Origin: a virus
Length of the DNA stretch: 64,000 nucleotides
IMG/VR virus record: IMGVR_UViG_3300005590_000001
Location: 1-64,000 of that record
Reading direction: 5' to 3' (one strand)
The position numbers and the translations under genes are program-made. Of this stretch, positions 248 through 60,619 are shown in pieces; the first letter of the stretch is position 1; each line of letters starts with the position of its first letter. Below the pieces are notes generated by a model that did not search any database, was not told where the DNA came from, and saw only the letters and a list, made by a program, of their open reading frames with translations.

Positions 248-650
248 TCGCACACAAGATGAATTAGAATCTAATCCAATTGTAGAATACGTTGAAGAAC
301 TGGCTGTTAAAGAAGATATAAGCAATATGGACTTGGAAATCTATTATAGAATTTATCGAGGAGCATATTACTGGGGTAATGATCTAGATTATCAAGACTG
401 TAAAGATTTTGGTGAAGTTTTTGATCGTATGCGATTAGTAAAAACTGCACTAGAACCAGTTGGGACTAGAGACTTTTCCAACGGACTGAATCAAAAGATT
501 AAAGATTTTATTGATGAAGTTGATTCTAATGGGAATCCAACTGGACAAGATAAACCTTTTGAACCTATTTACAAAAATGAATATACAGACTTAATGTTTT
601 ATATTAGTGAAGGGTTAAAGGAAGCTTTGAATAATGATAGATCCGAATGA
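180..650 (+). CDS. Secreted protein, unknown function
   Basis: The 156-residue product begins with a clear Sec signal: MLKRY, a hydrophobic core FLMLIAIMLLTT, and a small-residue cleavage zone near SYS. The ATG at 180 is chosen; an in-frame TTG at 174 adds two residues. The mature part is acidic and mostly helical, with no cysteine, so it is not a lipoprotein. It overlaps the following peptidase gene by 17 bases, which suggests co-translation. No domain recognised; a periplasmic or envelope location is inferred from the signal peptide only. Confidence 0.75.
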   Translation: MLKRYIQSFLMLIAIMLLTTSYSRTQDELESNPIVEYVEELAVKEDISNMDLEIYYRIYRGAYYWGNDLDYQDCKDFGEVFDRMRLVKTALEPVGTRDFSNGLNQKIKDFIDEVDSNGNPTGQDKPFEPIYKNEYTDLMFYISEGLKEALNNDRSE

Positions 651-2586
651 TAGTGGTTGGATAGATCATAAAGAGGGTGTTGCAGAAATTGAGGCTTTGA
701 AACCTCAGATTATTTACGGCGGTACTCCAGATATGCGACAATCTGGTGCCGGAAAAGTGCAACTCTTATACTCTGTCTATGATTCTTTTCCTGTTATTCA
801 CCAAGGTTCTGCTCCCTCTTGTGTTGCTTGTGCAACTGCTGGCGCTCTTGATTGTCTTCGAAAAACTGAAATTGCAGATGGTGATCGAGAAGATTTTGTA
901 AATTTCTCAGTCGAAGAATTCATCTATTTTGTCAGTAGAGTTATTATCGGCAAAAATAGACTGCGTGGTAGTGGTGGATCTTTAGTTTCTTGGGCTGTTG
1001 CTGGCTTAGAACAAATAGGATTTATTGTTAAAGATAAGTATGGAAACTTAGATCTTACTTCTTATAGTGCAAAAAGAGCAGTTGATTGGGGTGACGGACG
1101 TAATATTCCGGGTTCAGAATTAGTACAAATTGCTGCTGGACAAAAAATACTTGATTTTGTGCGGATTAAGTCTTACGAAGAGGCTCGTGATGCAATCTAT
1201 AATAAATATCCAGTGATAGTTGGAAGTCAGTATGGATACTCACGACAAAGAGATGCTGAAGGATTTGCTCTACAAAATACTAGATGGGCGCATTGTTATT
1301 TACCAAACTCTTTTATTTGGGGGGATGAGTTTAAAAAAATACAAGATTTGTCTGTTGGTGACGGAATTTATTCTCATGATGGTGAACTTACAGAAGTAAC
1401 AGAAATTAAAAAACAAAAATATTGTGGAGATATTTACAATATTCGTGTTTCTAATGGATTTCATAAAGTTACTAGCGACCATCCATTTTTAGTAAAATAT
1501 CAGTATTTACGCAACAGAGAATGTATTCCTTATGATGGATCAGTTTTAGATAATGTAACTTCTAATGTTGTGACAAAATCTAAAACCAAATTAGCATGGA
1601 TCAAGGCAAAAGATTTGTGTCAAGATGATTATCTAATAATGCCAAAACCTAAATTACCATCGCAATCTTTCATACCAGATAATAAAGAATTAAAGATTAC
1701 TCCTAATAGTGATTTAGCTTGGTTTTTTGGTATGTATTTGGGTGATGGTTACTCTACTAAAAATCATAAAATTATTTTTACGCAAAATATTAATGAAACC
1801 AATAATATTAATCGGCTTTTAAGAGTAGCTAAAAAATATTTTAATCTTCTTGGAACTGTAAAAAATAGGAAAATAAAAGAAAATTGCAATGCAGTAAATA
1901 TTATTTTCTACAGCGCAAAACTTTCTAACTTTATGCATAAGTGGTTTAAAACTAAAAATCTAAAAGAAATACCCCAATGGTTATTATCAAAAGAATGGGA
2001 CTTAAGATCTTTATTAATGGGTTTTAATGATTCTGACGGATGTTATTTAGATAACAAATGGTATAGGTTTTGTATCACAAACAGCTCTTATAAGTTGATA
2101 CAGCAATTTAACTTTATTATCAATTATTTAGGTTTTAAGTGTTGGTATAGAGAAATTGCCGGCGGTATGACCATCTTTAATAATAAAAAATATCAAAGAA
2201 AAAGGCAATATGCTTTGAATGTAAATCTTAAAAAGTTTAATAATTCTGATTTTTGTTACAATAATATTAAAAAAATAGAAAAGGAATTTTATTCTGATGA
2301 AATCATCACTCTTGAGACGGCAAATCATACTTATGTGGTAAACGGATCTTTATCCCATAACTGTATGTGGTGGTCTGGAGTAGACGATTCTGGTCGTAGA
2401 CCGGGAATTTGTAATCAGAATAGCTGGGGACGATCTTATCATTACGGTCCTAAACGACATAATCAGCCAGATGGATCTTTTTGGATTGATGCAGATAATG
2501 CCGATAAAATGTGCAGAAATGGAGATGCATGGGCTATTTCAAACTTTAAAGGATTTCCACTTAGAGCTGACTGGAGAATAATATGA
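634..2586 (+). CDS. Papain-like (C1) cysteine peptidase interrupted by an intein
   Basis: The 650-residue precursor is a 294-residue C1-type peptidase with a 356-residue intein (residues 221-576). The nucleophile region HQGSAPSCVACATAG puts Cys63 in the position of the papain QGxCGSCWAF motif. The catalytic His is His220 (TRWAH), and the Asn lies in NQNSWG (Asn596), the classic NSWG element. The intein sits directly after the catalytic His, so the protease cannot be active before splicing. Neighbours are a secreted protein and a membrane-anchored thioredoxin fusion. No signal peptide is seen. A role in virion maturation or host-protein cleavage is possible but unproven. Confidence 0.88.
   Translation: MIDPNDSGWIDHKEGVAEIEALKPQIIYGGTPDMRQSGAGKVQLLYSVYDSFPVIHQGSAPSCVACATAGALDCLRKTEIADGDREDFVNFSVEEFIYFVSRVIIGKNRLRGSGGSLVSWAVAGLEQIGFIVKDKYGNLDLTSYSAKRAVDWGDGRNIPGSELVQIAAGQKILDFVRIKSYEEARDAIYNKYPVIVGSQYGYSRQRDAEGFALQNTRWAHCYLPNSFIWGDEFKKIQDLSVGDGIYSHDGELTEVTEIKKQKYCGDIYNIRVSNGFHKVTSDHPFLVKYQYLRNRECIPYDGSVLDNVTSNVVTKSKTKLAWIKAKDLCQDDYLIMPKPKLPSQSFIPDNKELKITPNSDLAWFFGMYLGDGYSTKNHKIIFTQNINETNNINRLLRVAKKYFNLLGTVKNRKIKENCNAVNIIFYSAKLSNFMHKWFKTKNLKEIPQWLLSKEWDLRSLLMGFNDSDGCYLDNKWYRFCITNSSYKLIQQFNFIINYLGFKCWYREIAGGMTIFNNKKYQRKRQYALNVNLKKFNNSDFCYNNIKKIEKEFYSDEIITLETANHTYVVNGSLSHNCMWWSGVDDSGRRPGICNQNSWGRSYHYGPKRHNQPDGSFWIDADNADKMCRNGDAWAISNFKGFPLRADWRII
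1294..2361 (+). mobile_element. Intein with LAGLIDADG endonuclease in the C1 peptidase
   Basis: The intein begins at Cys221 (CYLPNSFIW) and ends at Asn576 (SLSHN), followed by Cys577 as the +1 nucleophile. The splicing N-block (HKVTSDHPFLV) and the C-terminal block ending His-Asn are visible. Two degenerate LAGLIDADG helices, FFGMYLGDGYS and LLMGFNDSDGCY, mark the embedded homing endonuclease. Insertion lies between the catalytic His and the next extein residue. All splicing residues look intact, so splicing is expected. Confidence 0.9.
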
Positions 2587-4479: not shown

Positions 4480-4517
4480 AAACCGCAAGAATCGTGAAGA
4501 TTTTTGCGGTTTTTTTA
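4480..4517 (+). terminator. Rho-independent terminator closing the left plus-strand operon
   Basis: The stem AAACCGCAA pairs with TTGCGGTTT across a loop of about 15-18 bases and runs into a T tract (4510-4516). It lies in the 80-base gap between convergent genes ending at 4446 and 4527. On the other strand the downstream sequence is only weakly T-rich, so it may work mainly in the plus direction. Confidence 0.8.
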
Positions 4518-4526
4518 GTTGGTTTC

Positions 4527-4976
4527 TCAATAATGAGAACCGAGCACCGACAAGACACCGGCGACGGCCTCTGGCGTAAGTTTTGTATGTTTGTATAAAG
4601 TCTTTTCTGAAATTTCTTCGCATGCAAATTTAATGATATAATCTAAATCTTTACTAGAAATTTTTCTCATTAATATATTATAATCAGAATAAAAAGAACT
4701 ATTTTTAATCATTCTTGTAAAATTAAAATTAGTTCTATGCTGAATACGAAATTTAATCTCTTTGTCACAAACACGTAACATATGATAATAAATTCTATAA
4801 TAAATAAATTTTAATTTATTGTTAGATTTTTTTGGATTAAATCTATCCCAAATCTTGTGACAAATAATAAACATTTCTGAGATAATTTCTTCTTTTTCAA
4901 AAGTATTTTTCATATATCTCGGTAAATGTAAATACATATCATCAGCAATATCTAAAAATTCCTTTTCAGAAATCAT
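4527..4976 (-). CDS. Sigma-70-like (region 2 type) transcription factor candidate
   Basis: The 149 residues resemble a short sigma factor. FEKEEIISEMFIICHKIWDRFNPKKSN followed by IYYRIYYHMLRVCDKE has the helix pattern of sigma region 2 (acidic recruitment helix, conserved aromatic-rich promoter-melting helix, basic end). The C-terminus (EEISEKTLYKHTKLTPEAVAG) could be a helix-turn-helix of region-4 type. Length is close to small ECF-like sigmas. It ends the minus-strand block and overlaps the upstream gene by 4 bases. Similarity is judged by eye only; it could be another helical DNA-binding protein. Confidence 0.45.
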   Translation of the reverse strand: MISEKEFLDIADDMYLHLPRYMKNTFEKEEIISEMFIICHKIWDRFNPKKSNNKLKFIYYRIYYHMLRVCDKEIKFRIQHRTNFNFTRMIKNSSFYSDYNILMRKISSKDLDYIIKFACEEISEKTLYKHTKLTPEAVAGVLSVLGSHY

Positions 4977-17240: not shown

Positions 17241-19724
17241 CTAAACATAAAGTTCCTTAATAGTATTTAAATTATTTTTAGCCCAATCTAAAATCTGATC
17301 AATACCAGTAGTAATATCTACTTTCGGCGACCACTCAAAAATACGCTGAACTTTATCTAGATCCGATATGTATATACGTTGATCAGCACGACGTTGTTCG
17401 CCGTTTTTATCCACAGATACAAACTTTTCGCCGGTTTTCTCTTCTACCATATTGATTAGTTCAAGTACTGACAATGTATTATTTTTACCACCGCCGACAT
17501 TAACTACAGTTGAAGGTCCGCCGTTATGTAAATACTGAATCTGCTTCAAAACTAAATCTTGAATATCATCCATAAATAGGCAGTCACGCACCTGTTTACC
17601 ACCCCAGCCGTAAATTGTTACTGGTAACTTAAGTAGATTAGCAATGACGAACCACGCGACCCATCCCTGCTCGGATTTTCCCCACTGATAAGGTCCAGCC
17701 AAACAATTGTGTACATGAAAATTATTTGCAATAAAATTATGACTATTTTCTACAGTCATATCATATACGTCATGAATTCCTATAGATTTTTTGTCTACAA
17801 TTTGATCCCAAACCATTCCTTCACCGCTGGTATCTTTGGTGTGAAGCTGTAACCAATCCTTAAATTTTGAGATTGCTAAATCTTCTTTCAAAAATTCTGA
17901 CAAATACATTAAATTATTTTGCCGATGATCATTATAGCTATATCCAATCTTATTAAATTTAGCATATGTATCTTTAGCAGATCCCAATCGTAGTTCAACA
18001 CCAATGGAAGTAGATCCGTCACTATTTTCATATTTAAGTGTTTGATGTAGTGAACTACCAATTCCGAACTCTAATAGCAGATCTCTTAATTCATACATAA
18101 ATGCATACAAATTATCTTGATAATCTTCAAGTTTACACTGAGTCATATTAAGATTTTGTAATTCTAATTTTTCTTGTCCCTTTCTGTTTCTATTTACCAC
18201 ATTGGGACAAGATCCTTCAGCGCCAAACAAACCACCCAAGAATTCTGCTTTGATATCTGTATCGGCAGATTTGATCCAATCCGGAACCAAATATTGATTG
18301 GTTACTTTTCTGTTGGTTGGCAACCCAAGTAAATACATATAGAATGAGAATGAAATACTACTAACACATATCTTTTTTGACTCTCCATCAATAATTTTAC
18401 CATTAGTTAATTCAGATTTAGAATTACTTTTAAAGATATCAGAACAATGAAATCCTAATTCCTTAATTTCATCTCTAATTTTTAATAAAGTTGCATCATG
18501 TTCATCATAAATTTGCATATTAATGGCAAAGTAATCTTTACCATTATCACTCCTTTGGCGTTTTTTAAATGACAAATGTCCGTCGCCGAAACACCACCCT
18601 AACAAACGAGCAATTTTATAAATGTTAGAATTGTTACATTTGAGCGGTAATAAACCTTTATTTTCTAAATCCGCAATAGACTTATCAATAAATTTTTGTG
18701 AGAATAACAAATCTGGATTAGAGATTGCCTCTCTATATTGATTTGAAGATAAAATTACTTTGTCTGATAATGCAGAAATATGTTTGCGTGTTCTTAAATC
18801 TGGATTAATTTCCACAAAAGAACCATGAGATATGTTTTCTAATTTTTGATATCCAGCAGGTGTGTAATACTGATGACAGTCTGTCGATTGAAGTTTAAAA
18901 CCCCTGCGAGTTGTCACTTCAAACAATTCTTTTTGACCGTTATGAAAGACACCGGTAGGTGTAGAATTATACCCTTGGTTGTCTTTAACGTCAATATCTT
19001 TGTCAATATTGATTAATTGTAGATCGCCGGATTTTGTCTTAATAAGAGTATCAGCAGCTAAACAACTAAACCGATTGATAACTGCCGGAATACTATAGGC
19101 GTCAGACCATTCCTGAATAAGTAAGTCGGCCATTGCTTTAGAAACGCCGTAAATACTACGGTCTCCGCCGTTGAGATTAAATCTCGTTGTTATTCCTCTT
19201 TCTGTAAATCCGTCACGTTCGTGTAATGCGACCATTACCGCTTGTTCTGGAGTAAGTTGAGGCTTAATAATATTATTTTTCTGCCGTGGAATAATATCTA
19301 CCCATTCATAACGAGTAGGTTTTTCTACATATGCAAAGTGATTGCAAGGTTCTCCCGGATATACCTTATTGGTAGACCAAAATACAATTGGAATTTTCGT
19401 TTTTCTAGAATACTCTAGAGTATTAAGCACACCAATTGTATTATTCTGAATATCGAATGCGGGATTCTTATAATTCACGGCTGATGGCTGAGCTGCCGTC
19501 AAAAGAATCGCATGATAATCGTCTCCAAGATTCTTGAAATCCTCCGGATTTCTAATGTCGCCGTGAATAAAATTTACTCCATGTTCTTTCAAACGCGGTA
19601 GATTAAATTCACTACCTCGGCGGACTAGGTTGTCTACCACATCCACCATCCATCCGTCTTTGGCAAAGTTACATGCTAAGTTTGCACCGATGAATCCGGC
19701 GCCGCCCAAAATTAAAAGTTTCAT
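17241..19724 (-). CDS. NAD-dependent sugar epimerase/dehydratase (SDR) interrupted by an intein
   Basis: The 827-residue precursor holds a 374-residue extended SDR enzyme and a 453-residue intein. ILGGAGFIGANLA is the GxxGxxG NAD site at the N-terminus. STNKVY and YGVSKAMADLL give the Ser/Tyr/Lys catalytic group. After the intein the frame continues CLAGPYQWGKSEQGWV, then IYGWGGKQVRDCLFMDD, typical of CDP-paratose 2-epimerase or UDP-hexose epimerase relatives. It probably supplies an activated sugar to the glycosyltransferases around it. The substrate is not determined. Confidence 0.88.
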   Translation of the reverse strand: MKLLILGGAGFIGANLACNFAKDGWMVDVVDNLVRRGSEFNLPRLKEHGVNFIHGDIRNPEDFKNLGDDYHAILLTAAQPSAVNYKNPAFDIQNNTIGVLNTLEYSRKTKIPIVFWSTNKVYPGEPCNHFAYVEKPTRYEWVDIIPRQKNNIIKPQLTPEQAVMVALHERDGFTERGITTRFNLNGGDRSIYGVSKAMADLLIQEWSDAYSIPAVINRFSCLAADTLIKTKSGDLQLINIDKDIDVKDNQGYNSTPTGVFHNGQKELFEVTTRRGFKLQSTDCHQYYTPAGYQKLENISHGSFVEINPDLRTRKHISALSDKVILSSNQYREAISNPDLLFSQKFIDKSIADLENKGLLPLKCNNSNIYKIARLLGWCFGDGHLSFKKRQRSDNGKDYFAINMQIYDEHDATLLKIRDEIKELGFHCSDIFKSNSKSELTNGKIIDGESKKICVSSISFSFYMYLLGLPTNRKVTNQYLVPDWIKSADTDIKAEFLGGLFGAEGSCPNVVNRNRKGQEKLELQNLNMTQCKLEDYQDNLYAFMYELRDLLLEFGIGSSLHQTLKYENSDGSTSIGVELRLGSAKDTYAKFNKIGYSYNDHRQNNLMYLSEFLKEDLAISKFKDWLQLHTKDTSGEGMVWDQIVDKKSIGIHDVYDMTVENSHNFIANNFHVHNCLAGPYQWGKSEQGWVAWFVIANLLKLPVTIYGWGGKQVRDCLFMDDIQDLVLKQIQYLHNGGPSTVVNVGGGKNNTLSVLELINMVEEKTGEKFVSVDKNGEQRRADQRIYISDLDKVQRIFEWSPKVDITTGIDQILDWAKNNLNTIKELYV
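17706..19064 (-). mobile_element. Intein with LAGLIDADG endonuclease in the SDR epimerase
   Basis: Starts at Cys221 (CLAADTLIKTKSGD) and ends at Asn673 (NNFHVHN), with Cys as +1 residue. Endonuclease motifs are LLGWCFGDGHL and FLGGLFGAEGS. The terminal His-Asn and the intein block VYDMTVENSHNFIA are intact. The host site NRFS/CLAGPYQWG is the conserved substrate-side loop of the SDR fold, so the enzyme needs splicing to function. Confidence 0.9.
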
Positions 19725-41226: not shown

Positions 41227-41485
41227 TCTTTGACCTCTCTTCTAAATCAAGTTGACCAAGAGTGTGACCTAAAGCTGTAACGGTCATAAAAATTGTAAAT
41301 AGTAAAAATAGATTTGTTAAAGATGCATAAATAACATATGACCAAAAAGTTAAATCAGAAAATGCTAATTTACATAATAGTGCAATGTTTGCAAAGACAC
41401 CAACCAAAGAAAGAATAAACGATAAAATGCCAACTAAAACCATTACTATGTTAAATGTATCACTATACTTTTTAATTTCTACCAT
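41210..41485 (-). CDS. Small membrane protein
   Basis: The 91 residues contain FNIVMVLVGILSFILSLVGV and LTNLFLLFTIFMTVTALG, three probable helices. Inserted between the NAMPT-like and kinase genes; overlaps both. Unknown. Confidence 0.65.
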   Translation of the reverse strand: MVEIKKYSDTFNIVMVLVGILSFILSLVGVFANIALLCKLAFSDLTFWSYVIYASLTNLFLLFTIFMTVTALGHTLGQLDLEERSKNEKRS

Positions 41486-42378
41486 GTTAAAAACTCACTT
41501 ATGTGGATTGCATTAACTCCAACTTGATTTAATGATGTCAAAACTTGATGATCATCATCTACTACGGTTACGTCTCGTTTGTCCAACTTCCTCGAACGAA
41601 TGATAGAAAGCGCTTCCACATATTTATAACGTTTATTACCAACGAAGAAACGATTTTCTTTAGGAATAAAAGGGGCGTGCTTATCAAGCCACTCCTCTTT
41701 TTCTCGTAAACTTTGGCTATTAGGCATGGCAGAAAGAATGTAAACGTTATCACGATTAAGAATGCGGTCCAAAACTGGTTGAACGGGTCTAGCATACTTA
41801 AAATATTCCCCATCTGTAAAATTAATGTTGCCGTTTTCATCTAACGGCATGTGTTGATATGCCGCAAGCGTACCATCCATATCAAAGAAGATATGTTTGT
41901 TGGTATAGTATGGAACGTCAACGACATCATCACAGTATTCAAGTAATCTGTGGTAGCAACGATTTTTAATAATTGCTTTCTTAATAATCGCCGATTCAGG
42001 TACTGTTCTTTCTCGCTGCTTATTTCGTTCTAAGCAAACTGCAAGTGGCGTGTCAATATTAACAAGTACAATTTGATACTCACCGATCTGATCAACTTCA
42101 CTCATCAATCTCGCATTATACTTATTATTGATACCACCACCGTCAAAGAATATTGTACTATATTTTAATGATTTAGCGGCGTTTATAAGCTGTTGTTCTG
42201 CTCTTTCTACACTTAATTGATGTAGAGCTTCGGGAAATGCTGGATTATATAAAGGGTTTTGTTTTTTGATTTCATCAGCGGATATAATAATTGGGTCGAA
42301 AAAATTATCTAACCTATTTTGTATCCAAGTTGTTTTACCGGCACCCGGCAAACCGAACATAAAGTAAACGGTTCTCAT
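41479..42378 (-). CDS. P-loop kinase / HAD phosphatase fusion (Pnkp-like)
   Basis: The 299 residues pair a kinase domain (FMFGLPGAGKTTWIQ, residues 7-21) with a HAD phosphatase (IFFDMDGTLAAYQH, about 163-176, then YILSAMPNSQSLREKEEWL). The order matches Pnkp, but the phosphatase part more resembles 5'-nucleotidase type HADs. Located between NAMPT-like and PRPP-synthetase-like genes, it may act in nucleotide or NAD salvage rather than nucleic-acid repair. Confidence 0.8.
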   Translation of the reverse strand: MRTVYFMFGLPGAGKTTWIQNRLDNFFDPIIISADEIKKQNPLYNPAFPEALHQLSVERAEQQLINAAKSLKYSTIFFDGGGINNKYNARLMSEVDQIGEYQIVLVNIDTPLAVCLERNKQRERTVPESAIIKKAIIKNRCYHRLLEYCDDVVDVPYYTNKHIFFDMDGTLAAYQHMPLDENGNINFTDGEYFKYARPVQPVLDRILNRDNVYILSAMPNSQSLREKEEWLDKHAPFIPKENRFFVGNKRYKYVEALSIIRSRKLDKRDVTVVDDDHQVLTSLNQVGVNAIHISEFLTW

Positions 42379-43829: not shown

Positions 43830-43904
43830 TGACACTGGAGAGATTCGAACTCTCAACTCACTGCTTCTAAGGCAGCGTCCTCTTGCCTATTGGGATACAG
43901 TGCC
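43830..43904 (-). tRNA. tRNA-Leu (anticodon TAG, short variable arm)
   Basis: Acceptor GGCACTG/CAGTGTC; anticodon arm GCTGC-CTTAGAA-GCAGT with anticodon TAG (reads CUA); T-arm GAGAG-TTCGAAT-CTCTC; discriminator A, no CCA. The variable loop is only five bases and the D-stem begins TATCCC, a form I associate with some phage tRNAs. Leu is inferred from the anticodon. Confidence 0.85.
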
Positions 43905-43981: not shown

Positions 43982-44647
43982 ATGAAATATACAAAAGAAT
44001 TATTAGAACCAATTGTTCGAGAATGCACATCTATAAGACAAGTTTTACAGAGACTAGGACTCAAAGAAACTGGCGGAAATTATTCAAATATTGGAAAAAG
44101 AATAGATAAACATGGTATTGATCGATCTCATTTTACTGGACAGGGACATATGAAGGGTAAAAAAGCATTAAATAGAAAATCAACTAAATATTACTTAGAT
44201 AATAAAGCTCATATACACTCCAATGCATTACGTTTACGATTACTTAACGAAGGATATTTCGAACACCAATGCCAAGGATGTGGTGCAAAAGAGTGGAGGG
44301 GTGATTCTATACCTCTAGAATTACACCATATTGATTGTAACCATCACAATAATAGCTTAGATAACTTAATGATTTTATGCCCAAATTGTCACAAATATGA
44401 ACATGATCAATTAAAAAAGAAATCTAAAAACCCTAAACATAAAAAAAAATGTAAAGACTGCACTGAGCAAATAAGAAAAGAGTCGTTGAGATGTAGATCA
44501 TGTGCGTCAAAATTACGACCGACTAAAATTAATTGGCCAGATACCAAATCTTTAAAGAAAATGGTATCTGAAACCAATTATTCTGTAGTTGCAAGATCTT
44601 TAAAAGTTTCTGATAACGCAATTAGAAAACGATTGAGAAATCATTAA
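43982..44647 (+). CDS. HNH homing endonuclease (free-standing)
   Basis: The 221 residues have an N-terminal helix-turn-helix region (TSIRQVLQRLGLKETGGNYS with a later IDRSHF). The HNH/zinc core is HQCQGCGAKEW, LELHHIDCNHHNNSLDNL and ILCPNCHKYEH. A C-terminal zinc pair (CKDC, CRSC) and a final helix LKVSDNAIRKRL follow. Paralogue of the gene at 51444. It is opposite to the surrounding operon and sits next to tRNA-Leu, consistent with homing into a tRNA region. Confidence 0.9.
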   Translation: MKYTKELLEPIVRECTSIRQVLQRLGLKETGGNYSNIGKRIDKHGIDRSHFTGQGHMKGKKALNRKSTKYYLDNKAHIHSNALRLRLLNEGYFEHQCQGCGAKEWRGDSIPLELHHIDCNHHNNSLDNLMILCPNCHKYEHDQLKKKSKNPKHKKKCKDCTEQIRKESLRCRSCASKLRPTKINWPDTKSLKKMVSETNYSVVARSLKVSDNAIRKRLRNH

Positions 44648-46999: not shown

Positions 47000-47851
47000 A
47001 TGAATTGTGAAAAATGTAACTTTAAAGCTCAAAAAAGAGGTCAATTAGGTATCCATAAGAAGACGTGTAAAAAATGGAAAAAGTTTTGTAGGAAAATGAC
47101 ATTACAAAAATTTGATTTTTTATATAATCACTTAAAAATGTCTGCGATAGATATTCAAAAAGCATACAAACTCAACTCATACGCAATTGTGTACACATTA
47201 ATGAAGAAGGTTGGATTCAAATGTAGGACTTTGTCTGAATCTGCGAAAATTTGTAGAAAGAAAGTCAAACATCACAACTTTAGTAAAAATCACCCGTCTA
47301 GAAAGAGATGGGAGAAGAGGCTGTTAAAAGAAGAAGGTATCACTAATGTTTTCCAACGTGAATCAGTTAAAAGAAAATCTGTTCAAACTCTACTAAAAAA
47401 ATATGGTGTAGAATCACCATACAAAATTACAACTTCACGAGGGAAAAATATATATTCATCAATTCATAGAAAAGTTGTAACTATATGTCAAGAACTTGAC
47501 ATTGAGATTGCTATTGAGTTTAAGCTTCCTAAAAAATCTGGTCGATATTTTGCTTATGATATATTTATATCTAACACTAAAAAGATTATAGAAGTTTATG
47601 GAGATTATTGGCATGGAAATCCATTAATCTACAAACCGAATGATTTAATCCTTAAGGGGTCAAGCGGTGAAAAAATAGTGAAAGAAAAATGGGAATTTGA
47701 TGAACTTAAAAATCGACATGCTGTTTTAGCAGGTTATCAGGTGTTGATTATATGGGAATCAGATTTAGTTAAAGATATCAATAAATTGATATTAGACTAC
47801 TCATCTGATAAGCATAGATCTCCGATACTTAATTCATCAACTCTTCTATAA
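47000..47851 (+). CDS. Vsr-like (EDxHD-type) free-standing homing endonuclease
   Basis: About 283 residues from MNCEKCNFKAQKRGQLGIHK, with a zinc-finger-like N-terminus. The C-terminal domain reads KKIIEVYGDYWHGNPLIY, then KEKWEFDELKNRHAVLAGYQ and VLIIWESDLV, the Vsr/PD-(D/E)XK pattern of the endonucleases found in fractured genes with split inteins. The ATG at 47000 has a GAGGTG Shine-Dalgarno. It is antisense to the two ligase halves and overlaps the end of the N-half by 55 bases. Confidence 0.88.
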   Translation: MNCEKCNFKAQKRGQLGIHKKTCKKWKKFCRKMTLQKFDFLYNHLKMSAIDIQKAYKLNSYAIVYTLMKKVGFKCRTLSESAKICRKKVKHHNFSKNHPSRKRWEKRLLKEEGITNVFQRESVKRKSVQTLLKKYGVESPYKITTSRGKNIYSSIHRKVVTICQELDIEIAIEFKLPKKSGRYFAYDIFISNTKKIIEVYGDYWHGNPLIYKPNDLILKGSSGEKIVKEKWEFDELKNRHAVLAGYQVLIIWESDLVKDINKLILDYSSDKHRSPILNSSTLL

Positions 47852-48651
47852 ACTGAAAATTCTGGAAGCCAGACAGGATTATTTCCTGTAATGGTCAATT
47901 TAGAGCCATCATCGAACTCCAACTCGAACCATTCACCATCATTGGGAACATAATAAAATTCATCAATTGGGACATAGATATCCTGATGTGTGTTTAAATC
48001 ACGTGCTTTAATATGCACAGTAAGTTTAAGATCAACAATATCTCCGATTTTTTGTGTGCCCAATTCTAATGTTTGAACTTTGGTATTACGCTCTACACAA
48101 CCATGAACTTTATTTGTAATGATTAACTCATCACCAATATTTATCTTTTCAATATTATACCTAAGCTGTTCTGTATCACGATGCTCAGGAAAACATAGTT
48201 CTTTTTTCTTAGTTGGTTTTTGTGAAGAGTTTCGATGAGGGTTTCTGCGTGAAATATATTTGCAACAGATTGGTATTCCTGCAAACTCATCTATTTGATC
48301 GCCCTCTTTTAATGCAGACGTATCTCCGAAGTGATTTAGATAAGAAAGAGGACACCAGAATCCATGAGATCGGACGCCTCGAAATTTTTGTACGCGGACG
48401 CGGCGATTTGGATCGAACATACCGCCTTCATTTGCACCAGTTTCTGGATTCTTACGGCGGATCAAATCGTTCTTCGCCGCAAACTCTGCGGACAACTGCA
48501 ACTCACACGGGAAGTATAAACCCAATGCTTGGTCCGGAGTATCTTTGCCGACAATAATAGTTTCACCCATTACTGTGCCAACGGCTAAACTATGTACTTC
48601 TGGATCTGGGTGTGGAGTAACTGTAACTTTACACACTATTGCTTTGTGCAT
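47797..48651 (-). CDS. RNA ligase, N-terminal half followed by a split-intein N-part
   Basis: The first 184 residues form an N-terminal ligase region ending DELIITNKVHG. Lys181-x-x-Gly184 is the adenylated lysine motif I (KxxG). From Cys185 (CVERNTKVQTLELGTQKIGD) a 100-residue intein N-fragment follows, with the block LEFDDGSKLTITGNNPVW. The long domain before KxxG resembles ligases with an N-terminal OB-like module. It would seal RNA nicks or breaks after healing by the kinase-phosphatase at 32515. Confidence 0.88.
   Translation of the reverse strand: MHKAIVCKVTVTPHPDPEVHSLAVGTVMGETIIVGKDTPDQALGLYFPCELQLSAEFAAKNDLIRRKNPETGANEGGMFDPNRRVRVQKFRGVRSHGFWCPLSYLNHFGDTSALKEGDQIDEFAGIPICCKYISRRNPHRNSSQKPTKKKELCFPEHRDTEQLRYNIEKINIGDELIITNKVHGCVERNTKVQTLELGTQKIGDIVDLKLTVHIKARDLNTHQDIYVPIDEFYYVPNDGEWFELEFDDGSKLTITGNNPVWLPEFSVYRRVDELSIGDLCLSDE
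47800..48099 (-). mobile_element. Split intein, N-terminal fragment
   Basis: Residues 185-284 of the N-half, starting with Cys185 after KVHG and ending at the stop codon. About 100 residues with the A and B splicing blocks. It has no endonuclease; that function is encoded by the separate gene between the halves. Confidence 0.87.
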
Positions 48652-51443: not shown

Positions 51444-52073
51444 ATGACATATAAAGTATCTGATGATGATTTTAAATCATCAATTGAAAAATCAAACAAT
51501 ATAGGTGAAGCACTTAAAAATATGGGGTACACAACAGCATCACAAAATTATAGGATGTTCAATAAAAGAGTAAAACAATTAAATATTGATATTAGTCATT
51601 TTAATGCAAAACGCTGGGAGCGTAATAAGTTTATAAAAAAACCTATTGAAGAATTTCTTCAAAAGAATCGGTGTGTGAATAGTAGTAATCTAAAGAAAAG
51701 GTTGATTAATGAAGGCTTCTTAGAAAACAAATGTTATGAATGTAACATAACAGACTGGCAAAATAAAAAACTTGTAATGCATTTAGAACACAAAGATGGT
51801 GATCCTCTTAATAATGAATTAAGCAATTTAACTTTATTATGTCCTAATTGTCATTCACAAACAAGTACATATTGTCGTGGACAAAAAAGAAAAAAACACA
51901 CAAAAAACAAAAGAAATAAACCTAGATTTCATTTAAGAAAAGTTGAGCGTCCACCTCTTGAAGTTTTAGAACAAGATGTGAAAATTTTAGGTTATTTAGG
52001 TACTGGAAGAAAATATAAAGTTAGTGATAACGCTATTAGAAAATGGATCAAATATTATAAAAATAGCCCTTGA
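51444..52073 (+). CDS. HNH homing endonuclease (free-standing)
   Basis: The 209 residues parallel the gene at 43982. NNIGEALKNMGYTTASQNYR and IDISHFNAKRW form the DNA-binding N-terminus. CYECNITDW, MHLEHKDGDPLNNELSNL and LLCPNCHSQT form the HNH/zinc core, and YKVSDNAIRKWI the C-terminal helix. Its stop codon lies inside tRNA-Gln on the other strand and its 5' side abuts a tRNA fragment. Confidence 0.9.
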   Translation: MTYKVSDDDFKSSIEKSNNIGEALKNMGYTTASQNYRMFNKRVKQLNIDISHFNAKRWERNKFIKKPIEEFLQKNRCVNSSNLKKRLINEGFLENKCYECNITDWQNKKLVMHLEHKDGDPLNNELSNLTLLCPNCHSQTSTYCRGQKRKKHTKNKRNKPRFHLRKVERPPLEVLEQDVKILGYLGTGRKYKVSDNAIRKWIKYYKNSP

Positions 52074-52134
52074 CGGGATCGAACCGCCGTATGCAACTCC
52101 AAAAGTTGCCGTCTTACCATTAGACGAAAGGGCA
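52064..52134 (-). tRNA. tRNA-Gln (anticodon TTG)
   Basis: Anticodon arm GCAAC-TTTTGGA-GTTGC with anticodon TTG; D-arm GTCT/AGAC; T-arm GGCGG-TTCGATC-CCGTC. Acceptor TGCCCTT/AAGGGCT has a terminal U-U mismatch. The 3' end overlaps the HNH stop on the opposite strand. No CCA. Confidence 0.9.
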
Positions 52135-53825: not shown

Positions 53826-54291
53826 TAGCACCGGTGGGAGTCGAACCCACATGGGGTATTCACCCCCTCAGATTTTAAGTCTGCATACCACTACAGTTTT
53901 CACTGCCTAAGTTTTTTACCCCTTTAATTCCTGCTGAACTTATCCGAGTTTCTATGAACTGAATCATATTCAGGGGTACAGGGTTTAGTTTGTGGTCTGG
54001 ACTATCCCTTTAGCTTTGCCTAAGCTTTAGCTAGGTGATTATAGTCTCTGCACCTTCTGTGTTGTCTGGCTTTATTTATCCCACTTGAATAAGTACCAGC
54101 TTAGGGTGTATCTAGAATTCCAACACAGCTTGGCTCAGGGTTCCCATACGAGTTAGCATAAAGCTAAGTCATCCTATTTGCTCACGCTCAAGGTTTTCTT
54201 CACGCTTAGGGTTCTCTGAATTTACACCATTTAGACATGGCTTTCACCATGAATGCACCTTATGATGCGTATGCCGTTCCGCCACGATGCC
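53826..54291 (-). tRNA. tRNA-Leu (anticodon TAA) interrupted by a group I intron
   Basis: The 5' exon (54265-54291, 27 bases) and the 3' exon (53826-53883, 58 bases) join to an 85-base class II tRNA: acceptor GGCATCG/CGGTGCT, anticodon stem TCAGA/TCTGA, loop CTTAAAA with anticodon TAA, variable arm GGGGTGAATACCCC, T-arm GTGGG-TTCGACT-CCCAC. Unspliced, the anticodon stem cannot form. No CCA. Confidence 0.9.
53884..54264 (-). mobile_element. 381-nt ORF-less group I intron in tRNA-Leu
   Basis: Conserved core elements are visible on the minus strand: GTGCAGAGACTATAATC (R/P7 5' side, 54037-54053) and GGGATAGTCC (S/P7 3' side, 53999-54008). The 5' exon ends GCAT with the last U able to pair with G in GGTGC (P1 wobble). 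The intron ends in G before the 3' exon CAGACTT. No open frame is present. Confidence 0.88.
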
Positions 54292-58310: not shown

Positions 58311-58604
58311 TCTCTCAAGAATTTCTTTTACTTTTTGTTTACGTTCTTTATGTTCTTTTTCTTTCTTATCATAAAGCTCATATATTGGTGTAATGTCATC
58401 AAAAACTTGTTCACACTTCAAACAGACCCTAATGGAATAAAATTTACTTGAAGTAAAAAAATCTGGTCTTAGTGATTTTTGACCCCTTTTTTCAAAACAA
58501 TCACACTCTATTTCGTAGAGAGACATAGTTTTGATAAGATAAAAATCATGTTGACACTCATCTGATTTGAAGAAACTTTTTATCCATGTAAAAAACTTAT
58601 TCAT
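58284..58604 (-). CDS. Cys-containing hypothetical protein
   Basis: The 106 residues carry SDECQHDFYLI, IECDCFEKRG and IRVCLKCEQVFDD, a likely zinc-binding set, and a basic helical C-terminus. The last codons fall in the GC-rich island. Overlaps the CCA/NADAR gene by 4 bases. Unknown. Confidence 0.65.
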   Translation of the reverse strand: MNKFFTWIKSFFKSDECQHDFYLIKTMSLYEIECDCFEKRGQKSLRPDFFTSSKFYSIRVCLKCEQVFDDITPIYELYDKKEKEHKERKQKVKEILERSQGSVEAR

Positions 58605-60619
58605 GATATCTCCTGAATTTCTTTTTCAAACAGAATTCTATCTCTAACCTTCATCAGACAAAGCCCAAGCAAATTTTTACCCAACCACTTATCTGGGTCA
58701 CCTATCCTAGGATCATCGGCAGATAAACCAACACCCCAAATCTTATCATAAGGACTAGCTTCAATCAATACTGTATCATTAGTTGCTAGCAATCTTTCTT
58801 TAAGATCCTCATTCTGATTAAATTTCAACATATTAATGGAATTAACTATTTTTTTGTTAGATACACTCCACATATATTCATTGAAATTTTTTACCTGTCT
58901 TCCTAATTTTTTAACTTCATTTGGATCGTGTGTCTTTAAAATTCTTTCTTTAATTTGATGATCATCAAACAAATTTGCTTTCATAAACATCATAGCTTGT
59001 TCAGCAGATGTAAATTTACATTCCTCTCCACCAAGCATCATTTTAAAATTACATCTAAACCATTGACTTAAAAATCCATATTCTTCATTTACTCTGAAAA
59101 ATGTAATAAATTTTTTACCATTCCTCAAAGCAGATTTCATTCTTTTTTCTGTTTTCTTAAAGGTGTTATTTTTATTATACTTATCTCTTATATTTCCAAT
59201 TTCTACCTTAAGTATTTTTTCTTCCGGAGTCATTGTAAGAGATTTATAAAGACCCATACCATCTTTTATCAATATATCCTTATTGATATCATATTTGCTC
59301 AATTGAACACGATATACATGATCTAAAGCTTTACCCATTTCTGGTCCCGGCTTAGCACCAGCTTTAATCAAATCATAACCACTGACTTTTCGAGGCTCTT
59401 TGTCAAACAACACATTAAATTTAGACGCAGTCTCTTCTAAATTATGAATGAAGGCAACATGCTGATCATCTGGCAATTTATCACCGCGACCAAACATATC
59501 AGAGCGTACAAGCATCAACAATTCTGAAATATTTGTGCCAAACTCACTAAGTTTGAACGCTAATTTCTTAATATTTTTTGATGATAGTTTCATATTACTA
59601 TCAAGCATATGATACTTAGTTAAACCCTTAACTGGTCTAACATACATATTTGGAACACCAATCTGTTCAAAGAAATCATCAATAATATCATCGGCGATTC
59701 TTTCGTGATTGTGTGAAGCAATATGGCCTTTATGCAATTTGGTAGTTTTATACTTACCAATATCATGACACAATGCTGCAAAAAACATTTGAATACTATA
59801 ATCTGTATTAAAAATATTTCTTTGTGCAAGAATCGCATACATCATATCAACAACATGACATGTATGTGTGAAGACATCACCTTCTGGGTGATATTCTGAA
59901 TCTTGCGGCGTAAAAATCATTTGCTGAAGAGCAGGCGTATACGATAGCCAACCAGTATTATTCAAAAATTGCAATGCTCGACTCGGTTGAATAGAAGTTG
60001 CAATCTTTTTCCACTCTCCCCAGATTCTCTCTTTTGAGATTGTATAATAATCTCTATGCAGAATTTTAGAATATGTTATCAAATCTGCAGATGGTTCAAA
60101 TTGAAATCGTGCAAGAAATTGTGCCGCACGAAGAACACGCAATGGGTCTTCACAAAATTTTGCCGAAGTTGGATGCAAGATACCATCTTTAAGATTTTTT
60201 TGACCGCCGTAATGATCAATAATAGTGCCATCAAAACTCATCAACATAGAATTTATAGTAAAATCTCTACGAAGACAGGCTTCTTTTGTACTAGTATCTT
60301 TATCGGCGATTATTTTAAAATCTTTATGCGATGGTCCAGTGCTCTTTTCTCTTCTCGGCAAACTAAAATCAAATTCGCCGTCATCATTCGTCAACTTATG
60401 TACAAAAAAAGATTCGCCGTGAGAACTTACTTTACCATATTTTGACAAGGTCTCAACCAAATCTGCCGAATGAACATCATAGACCTCAACGTCCCAATCC
60501 TTTGGTTCATAACCAAGCAAAATATCTCTTACACAACCACCAGCCATAAACAATCTCGCCGAATAACCAGATTGTTTTAGCTCATTCTCAATTTTGAGAA
60601 GGGTCAAAGGAATATCCAT
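58601..60619 (-). CDS. cca: CCA-adding tRNA nucleotidyltransferase fused to HD and NADAR domains
   Basis: The 672 residues contain a class II nucleotidyltransferase head (FMAGGCVRDILLGYEPKDWDVEV, 24-46, with the DxD site), an RNA-binding neck, an HD phosphohydrolase domain (THTCHVVDMMYAI; FFAALCHDIGKYKTT, 251-293), and a C-terminal NADAR/YbiA-like domain (503-662: FFRVNEEYGFLSQWF, FTSAEQAMMFMKANLF, DKIWGVGLS). The front half repairs tRNA 3' CCA ends. NADAR domains cleave ADP-ribose linkages to guanine or related N-glycosidic bonds. The fusion suggests repair of ADP-ribosylated or damaged RNA. Confidence 0.9.
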   Translation of the reverse strand: MDIPLTLLKIENELKQSGYSARLFMAGGCVRDILLGYEPKDWDVEVYDVHSADLVETLSKYGKVSSHGESFFVHKLTNDDGEFDFSLPRREKSTGPSHKDFKIIADKDTSTKEACLRRDFTINSMLMSFDGTIIDHYGGQKNLKDGILHPTSAKFCEDPLRVLRAAQFLARFQFEPSADLITYSKILHRDYYTISKERIWGEWKKIATSIQPSRALQFLNNTGWLSYTPALQQMIFTPQDSEYHPEGDVFTHTCHVVDMMYAILAQRNIFNTDYSIQMFFAALCHDIGKYKTTKLHKGHIASHNHERIADDIIDDFFEQIGVPNMYVRPVKGLTKYHMLDSNMKLSSKNIKKLAFKLSEFGTNISELLMLVRSDMFGRGDKLPDDQHVAFIHNLEETASKFNVLFDKEPRKVSGYDLIKAGAKPGPEMGKALDHVYRVQLSKYDINKDILIKDGMGLYKSLTMTPEEKILKVEIGNIRDKYNKNNTFKKTEKRMKSALRNGKKFITFFRVNEEYGFLSQWFRCNFKMMLGGEECKFTSAEQAMMFMKANLFDDHQIKERILKTHDPNEVKKLGRQVKNFNEYMWSVSNKKIVNSINMLKFNQNEDLKERLLATNDTVLIEASPYDKIWGVGLSADDPRIGDPDKWLGKNLLGLCLMKVRDRILFEKEIQEIS

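Follow-up and report, generated by a model that had tools for sequence, protein, structure and literature searches.

How a group I ribozyme functions when the helix that it forms with its 5' exon (P1) competes with the D-stem of the tRNA that carries it is a question posed by a locus in the first 64 kb (hereafter the window) of a 171,987-base IMG/VR virus record, that of a bacteriophage. An earlier note, made from the letters of the window, read a tRNA-Leu(UAA) gene as split, between its bases 27 and 28, by a group I intron; sites are given here by the two tRNA bases that flank the cut, so that this one is 27/28. The analysis confirms the intron call in the window, and the sequence evidence supports its reading as a group I intron in tRNA-Leu(UAA) at 27/28.

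A tRNA-Leu(UAA) gene divided at 27/28

Re-reading of the sequence returned the coordinates and strand first given for the exons and the intron (53826-54291), as follows:

54265..54291, minus: 5' exon of tRNA-Leu(UAA), 27 nt, with the acceptor 5' strand, the D-arm and bases 26 and 27; GGCATCGTGGCGGAACGGCATACGCAT
53884..54264, minus: group I intron, 381 nt, with no open frame over 49 codons; identified by RF00028, model R1 and covariation
53826..53883, minus: 3' exon, 58 nt; CAGACTTAAAATCTGAGGGGGTGAATACCCCATGTGGGTTCGACTCCCACCGGTGCTA

The 3' exon holds the anticodon hairpin from base 28 onward (anticodon UAA), a long variable arm, the T-arm, the acceptor 3' strand and A73, with no encoded CCA. 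The unspliced gene receives no ARAGORN call in the window, and a tRNA-Cys call made at the locus by the lenient intron search of the same program was set aside. Once joined, the exons are called tRNA-Leu(taa) by ARAGORN, and their minimum free energy fold is a cloverleaf with a long variable arm in which every arm is paired, which bears out the identity proposed for the gene. The host gene is the one that carries trnL-type introns, but the anticodon-loop insertion that also marks those introns is replaced here by insertion at 27/28.

Because CA is repeated at the ends of the intron, the junction is ambiguous by two bases, and one of the three choices gives a 5' exon ending in U together with an intron ending in G. 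Among 1118 candidate junctions in the locus with U before the cut and G at the intron end, 27/28 has the top ARAGORN score (118.4; next 113.8), and the spliced 34/35 tRNAs of other phages score 118.3 on average (n=51). Furthermore, bases 28-43 are unbroken in the 3' exon, and the insert must therefore lie 5' of the anticodon hairpin.

The ribozyme core

Against RF00028 the window intron scores 36.2 bits (E 1.5e-7, 701 bases searched), which is under the curated cut-off of 50, a database threshold and not a definition of group I introns; two other 27/28 introns, described below, score 35.2 and 44.5 bits. A covariance model, R1, built from an alignment (A3) of 19 introns of other viral contigs, all of the anticodon-loop type, gave one match in the 64-kb window, at 53884-54101 (71.1 bits, E 2.9e-12), which ends on the predicted terminal G, and a single match at the same place in the whole 172-kb record. 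Large insertions of the window intron, in the P5, P6 and P9 regions, leave the P4-P5 half of this match poorly aligned. A second RF00028 match, at 4486-4667 on the plus strand (21.2 bits), has no aligned P3-P7 and starts in a terminator-like hairpin, and was rejected.

An alignment of 31 introns (A2) was folded with RNAalifold, and P2, P3, P4, P5, P6, P8 and P9 emerged unprompted. Once P7 is included as a pseudoknot, pairing extends to 92.1% of cells, against 68.3% in shuffled alignments (0 of 500 shuffles as high), and changes on both sides are found in 34 of 43 pairs, with a covariation score of 0.639 against 0.195, figures that are inflated by relatedness and by a structure partly derived from the alignment itself. 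The fairer control for relatedness, in which the partner is slid by 1-3 columns, leaves 32.1-41.4% of cells paired, and the gap is large. A P3-P8 core, for which the earlier note had proposed a search by covariance fold, was found in the window intron together with P4-P6 and P7 by covariation and by R1. The elements of the ribozyme are these:

54265..54268, minus: P1 5' strand, exon GCAU, tRNA bases 24-27; 4 of 4 pairs in the four distinct 27/28 introns
54255..54258, minus: internal guide sequence GUGC, in which 54258 is the G of the splice-site U-G pair
54236..54251, minus: P2 hairpin CAUGGU GAAA GCCAUG; pairs preserved through compensating changes
54224..54229, minus: P3 5' strand; 6 of 6 pairs changed on both sides in 31 introns
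54034..54039, minus: P3 3' strand; covariation in 31 introns
54041..54046, minus: P7 5' strand GACUAU; pairing and covariation
54000..54005, minus: P7 3' strand AUAGUC; pairing and covariation
54011..54033, minus: P8 hairpin; 100% of cells paired in 31 introns
53893..53906, minus: P9 hairpin GCAGU GAAA ACUGU; 99.4% of cells paired in 31 introns
53884..53884, minus: terminal G of the intron; G in the four distinct 27/28 introns and the end of the R1 match

The P7 elements pointed out in the earlier note are present (GACTAT, 54046-54041, with ATAGTC, 54005-54000) and form six pairs, with 90.3% of cells paired across the 31 introns; the window intron likewise has its U-G pair at the 5' cut and ends in G. 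P10, the pairing of the guide region with the 3' exon, is helpful in group I introns and is not universal; as read by eye in the window intron, it amounts to one pair, between the G before the guide sequence and C28.

The 27/28 site and group I introns across phage tRNA genes

Two sequence patterns located the 27/28 site in other viruses. The first (a P9-like end, G, 1-9 bases and GACTTAAAATC) matched two viral stretches, L149 and L150, in both of which a tRNA-Leu(UAA) gene is split at 27/28. The second, drawn from the 5' junction, gave four viral matches, all four true, and added L151 and L152. Since L151 and L152 are identical over 7,625 nt, there are four distinct 27/28 sequences including that of the window, and the other carriers amount to three distinct phages on four contigs. 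The anticodon stem of L149 is CGGA/TCCG, with CAGA/TCTG in the tRNAs of the other 27/28 introns, and its P7 carries a compensated change of two pairs. Viral stretches with the joined site uninterrupted number 85, two of them on a single contig, and ARAGORN calls tRNA-Leu(taa) in 83 of these stretches. The 5'-junction pattern also matched 14 contigs of bacterial and archaeal genomes, none with a T-arm within 900 bases, and these matches were dismissed as chance. A strict pattern for introns 3' of the anticodon loop returned none, a result that proves little.

Neither the 691-aa protein encoded next to the window locus nor, in a search made without a positive control, the terminase-like protein of the window has a match in the four other 27/28 contigs, and so the carriers seem not to be closely related to the window phage. 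No relatives of the window locus were found by blastn among 50,697 phage records, an exact 21-base core pattern had no matches in viral contigs, and a neighbouring 86-aa protein returned no relatives. The 691-aa protein is matched at 40-46% identity in 15 contigs, three of which have RF00028 matches at E 0.01; the tRNA-Leu(UAA) pattern is found in two of the 15 (G004 and G012), both uninterrupted by ARAGORN, and in another of these contigs, G002, the gene is split at 34/35.

Other introns lie on some of these contigs. L004 and L026 both lie on G002, a 202-kb relative of the window phage with nine RF00028 matches, of which five exceed the cut-off. The L151 tRNA-Leu gene is followed, about 450 bases further downstream, by a second group I intron (79.4 bits), at G018:53310-53545 on the minus strand, with a copy in G019. 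The contig of L150 carries, about 1.2 kb upstream of its tRNA-Leu intron, a CAU tRNA that a group I intron splits at 36/37 (L256:1475-1742).

A scan with a core motif, P7 plus the strand after it, matched at least 120 viral stretches (contigs L029-L148). Among the matches listed, 59 of 120 are distinct, classified split tRNAs, both Leu(UAA) and others such as CAU ones; all are interrupted in the anticodon loop (50 at 34/35, six at 33/34 and three at 35/36), and 27/28 introns account for none of the 59. A looser flank test is passed by 85 of the 120 matches listed, and 35 are without tRNA flanks. With identical introns counted once, the split tRNAs classified by script number 67, or 65 after two spurious cases that span other tRNA genes (L089_27 and L062_26) were dropped: 51 at 34/35, seven at 33/34, three at 35/36 and four, the window included, at 27/28, in a set that may include proviral or misassigned IMG/VR contigs. 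Judged by these sequences, group I introns are common in phage tRNA genes, and the stem site 27/28 is a rare variant.

The near-universal loop position of the related phage introns would favor an ordinary anticodon-loop intron whose ends have been misplaced. However, the contiguity of bases 28-43 in the 3' exon, the identical junction in three other distinct phages, the uninterrupted joined sequence in 85 stretches and an R1 match that stops at 53884 all argue against misplacement, which is extremely improbable. The 27/28 site itself, as the earlier note had it, stands. It is also very unlikely that the locus is an assembly artefact or a dead gene, that is, a tRNA pseudogene whose intron no longer splices. 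The large core insertions, the low Rfam score, the one-pair P10 and a core that is only 66% identical to that of L151, with L149 and L150 outside its eight nearest, are what decay might leave behind, but all tRNA arms pair, the ARAGORN score equals those of other phage tRNAs, the core pairs are kept through compensating changes, and the 27/28 site recurs in contigs from other samples.

Introns of this kind also occur in an isolate, since Agrobacterium phage Atu_ph07 (MF403008.1) has an unannotated 34/35 tRNA-Leu intron that R1 scores at 123.5 bits. Microcoleus phage My-WqHQDG has an annotated tRNA-Arg of 286 nt, and single cases are thus already in the records. A passage of a 2014 review states that the phage introns observed to date were all in protein-coding genes, despite the many phage tRNA genes (PMC3984707), and an excerpt of the tRNAscan-SE 2.0 paper describes the program as not designed for group I introns in tRNA genes (PMC8450103). 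The portions retrieved from the open-access literature searched neither described a tRNA anticodon stem interrupted by a group I intron nor surveyed phage tRNAs for group I introns. For large phage genomes that have no tRNA-Leu(UAA) call, the implication is that the gene may be split.

Bacterial tRNA-Leu normally has a long variable arm. Among the matches listed, 12 of 51 split tRNAs with the loop CTTAAAA (UAA, Leu) have a variable loop of 5 bases (L047, L049, L052, L060, L068, L081, L106, L116, L125, L128, L133 and L138).

On neither strand of the intron is any stop-to-stop frame longer than 49 codons; the intron is therefore ORF-less, as first read, with no endonuclease ORF inside it. The homing endonuclease genes that had been mentioned nearby are two HNH ORFs, each adjoining a tRNA gene other than tRNA-Leu(UAA), and they are listed with other genes of the window:

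51444..52073, plus: HNH ORF, with a ten-base overlap with tRNA-Gln (52064-52134)
43982..44647, plus: HNH ORF, 77 bases from tRNA-Leu(tag) (43830-43904)
41479..42378, minus: polynucleotide kinase
47797..48651, minus: RNA ligase
58601..60619, minus: fused CCA-adding enzyme/HD/NADAR protein
634..2586, plus: intein in a terminase-like protein
17241..19724, minus: intein in an NAD-dependent epimerase-like protein

The two HNH genes, whose products are 28% identical, may encode endonucleases that target tRNA genes. No relatives of them were detected in the examined parts of L149-L152, and no link between the HNH genes and the 27/28 intron was found in the window or in those parts; the intron may have spread through an endonuclease acting in trans or through reverse splicing. 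The polynucleotide kinase, RNA ligase and CCA-adding enzyme/HD/NADAR protein likely form a tRNA repair set.

Proposed splicing, origin and relation to known introns

In all four distinct 27/28 introns the exon GCAU pairs with the guide GUGC, with U-G at the cut. The guides at the loop sites differ in keeping with the site: at 33/34 the guide is GGUC-like (4 of 4 pairs in 6 of 7 introns), at 35/36 it is GCAG (3 of 3 introns), and at 34/35 it is GAGU-like, with 4 of 4 pairs in 30 of 51 introns, 3 of 4 in 17 and 2 of 4 in four, some of these guides having been missed because long P1 inserts exceed the guide search range. At 27/28, tRNA bases 24 and 25 belong both to the P1 5' strand and to the D-stem; the three-pair D-stem draws on the GC of GCAU for its 3' strand, and P1 and the D-stem are therefore mutually exclusive. 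The predicted stabilities of P1 and the D-arm are close: P1 is put at -5.8 kcal/mol in the window, -3.8 in L149, -3.5 in L150 and -3.5 in L151, and the D-arm at -3.5, -3.4, -2.1 and -3.4 kcal/mol, respectively, with a non-canonical D-arm fold predicted for L150.

These values bear on the possibility that the insert splices but is mainly regulatory, with GTP, a helper protein or the stage of infection timing the supply of tRNA-Leu(UAA). The mutual exclusion of P1 (-3.5 to -5.8 kcal/mol, as predicted) and the D-arm (-2.1 to -3.5) could serve such a switch, but apart from the ribozyme the insert showed no additional conserved domain, and a chiefly regulatory role is improbable.

Much the most probable reading is that of an ORF-less group I ribozyme at 27/28 of a phage tRNA-Leu(UAA) gene, which uses a strand of the D-stem for its P1, would splice, and descends from a loop intron. 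From its anatomy and the established chemistry of group I introns, the guide GUGC in the precursor would form P1 by capturing exon GCAU (bases 24-27), so that the U-G pair lies at the cut. Guanosine held in P7 would attack after U27, and the freed U27 would in turn attack after the terminal G at 53884, joining the exons into a normal tRNA-Leu. The D-arm would be unable to fold while P1 is formed, and in the joined exons the D-stem would re-form, releasing the product and disfavoring reversal. The 3' exon in 27/28 genes contains an anticodon hairpin that is complete but for pair 27-43. Whereas the exons of loop introns pair with each other across the intron, the 27/28 intron leaves the anticodon hairpin within the 3' exon. 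Exon pairing of this kind is a requirement in the Anabaena pre-tRNA, according to a title cited in PMC3984707.

As to origin, the first third of the four 27/28 introns, from the guide sequence to P3, is 82-91% identical among them and at most 53% identical to that of any other intron compared; the window intron is 82-86% identical to L149-L151 over this part and at most 48% to any other, and L149-L151 share 89-91% identity among themselves and no more than 53% with introns outside the 27/28 set. Trees were built from 45 of the 65 introns, namely those under 300 nt plus all those at 27/28. In the core-only tree L149-L151 group with L089, a CAU tRNA split at 33/34 (support 97.3/98), and with L081 (34/35), and the window intron falls apart from them, with L131, L085, L072 and L036; when P1-P2 are included, the window intron and L149-L151 occupy neighboring clades. 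The placement in the core-only tree could mean two independent insertions at 27/28, one in the window lineage and one in that of L149-L151, a matter of origin only and compatible with the splicing explanation. The shared first third speaks against this, however, and the AU test does not reject a single origin (p 0.139); two insertions are a less likely but still serious account. On these comparisons the best reading is a single retargeting event from a loop intron, after which the window lineage diverged or exchanged its core. The window intron would belong to a compact family widespread in phage tRNA genes, the other members found lying in the anticodon loop with guide sequences matched to their own sites; one lineage was most likely retargeted from the loop to the junction of the D-stem and the anticodon stem, and the 27/28 form would then have spread among unrelated phages.

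A broader proposal can be advanced tentatively: group I introns may have in phage tRNA genes a major home that has gone largely unrecorded, and one lineage there would have been retargeted to use a D-stem strand for P1, so coupling tRNA folding to splicing. The combination of a shared first third and differing cores suggests that the guide and P2 move as a module from one ribozyme core to another. Changes of group I target are usually argued from rRNA genes. The sites 33/34, 34/35, 35/36, 36/37 and 27/28, with matched guides and empty sites, make a ready set for tests of group I retargeting.

The nearest known system by description is the cyanobacterial tRNA-Leu(UAA) intron, which shares the gene, the ribozyme class and the rules of a U-G pair and a terminal G. 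It lies in the anticodon region, whereas the window intron lies at 27/28 and pairs GUGC with GCAU in place of a loop-matching guide. The Atu_ph07 intron shares the gene and comes from an isolated phage, but its site, 34/35, differs, and the L089 core, from a CAU tRNA split at 33/34, is close to those of L149-L151. Group I introns occupy the anticodon loops of Azoarcus Ile and Agrobacterium Arg tRNAs. The same is reported for bacterial fMet and Ile2(CAU) tRNAs in an excerpt of PMC8450103; these bacterial introns and the window intron are alike compact ribozymes in tRNA genes, and site and guide differ. The group I introns of phage td, nrdB and DNA polymerase genes, as described in passages of PMC3706429 and PMC3984707, lie in protein-coding hosts, unlike the window intron. 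A match in position comes from the Chlorokybus mitochondrial trnS(gcu) gene: according to an excerpt of PMC1894977, its anticodon arm is interrupted by an intron, counted among the group II tRNA introns of that genome, that lies six bases before the anticodon. This is apparently the position of 27/28, but in an organelle and with other chemistry.
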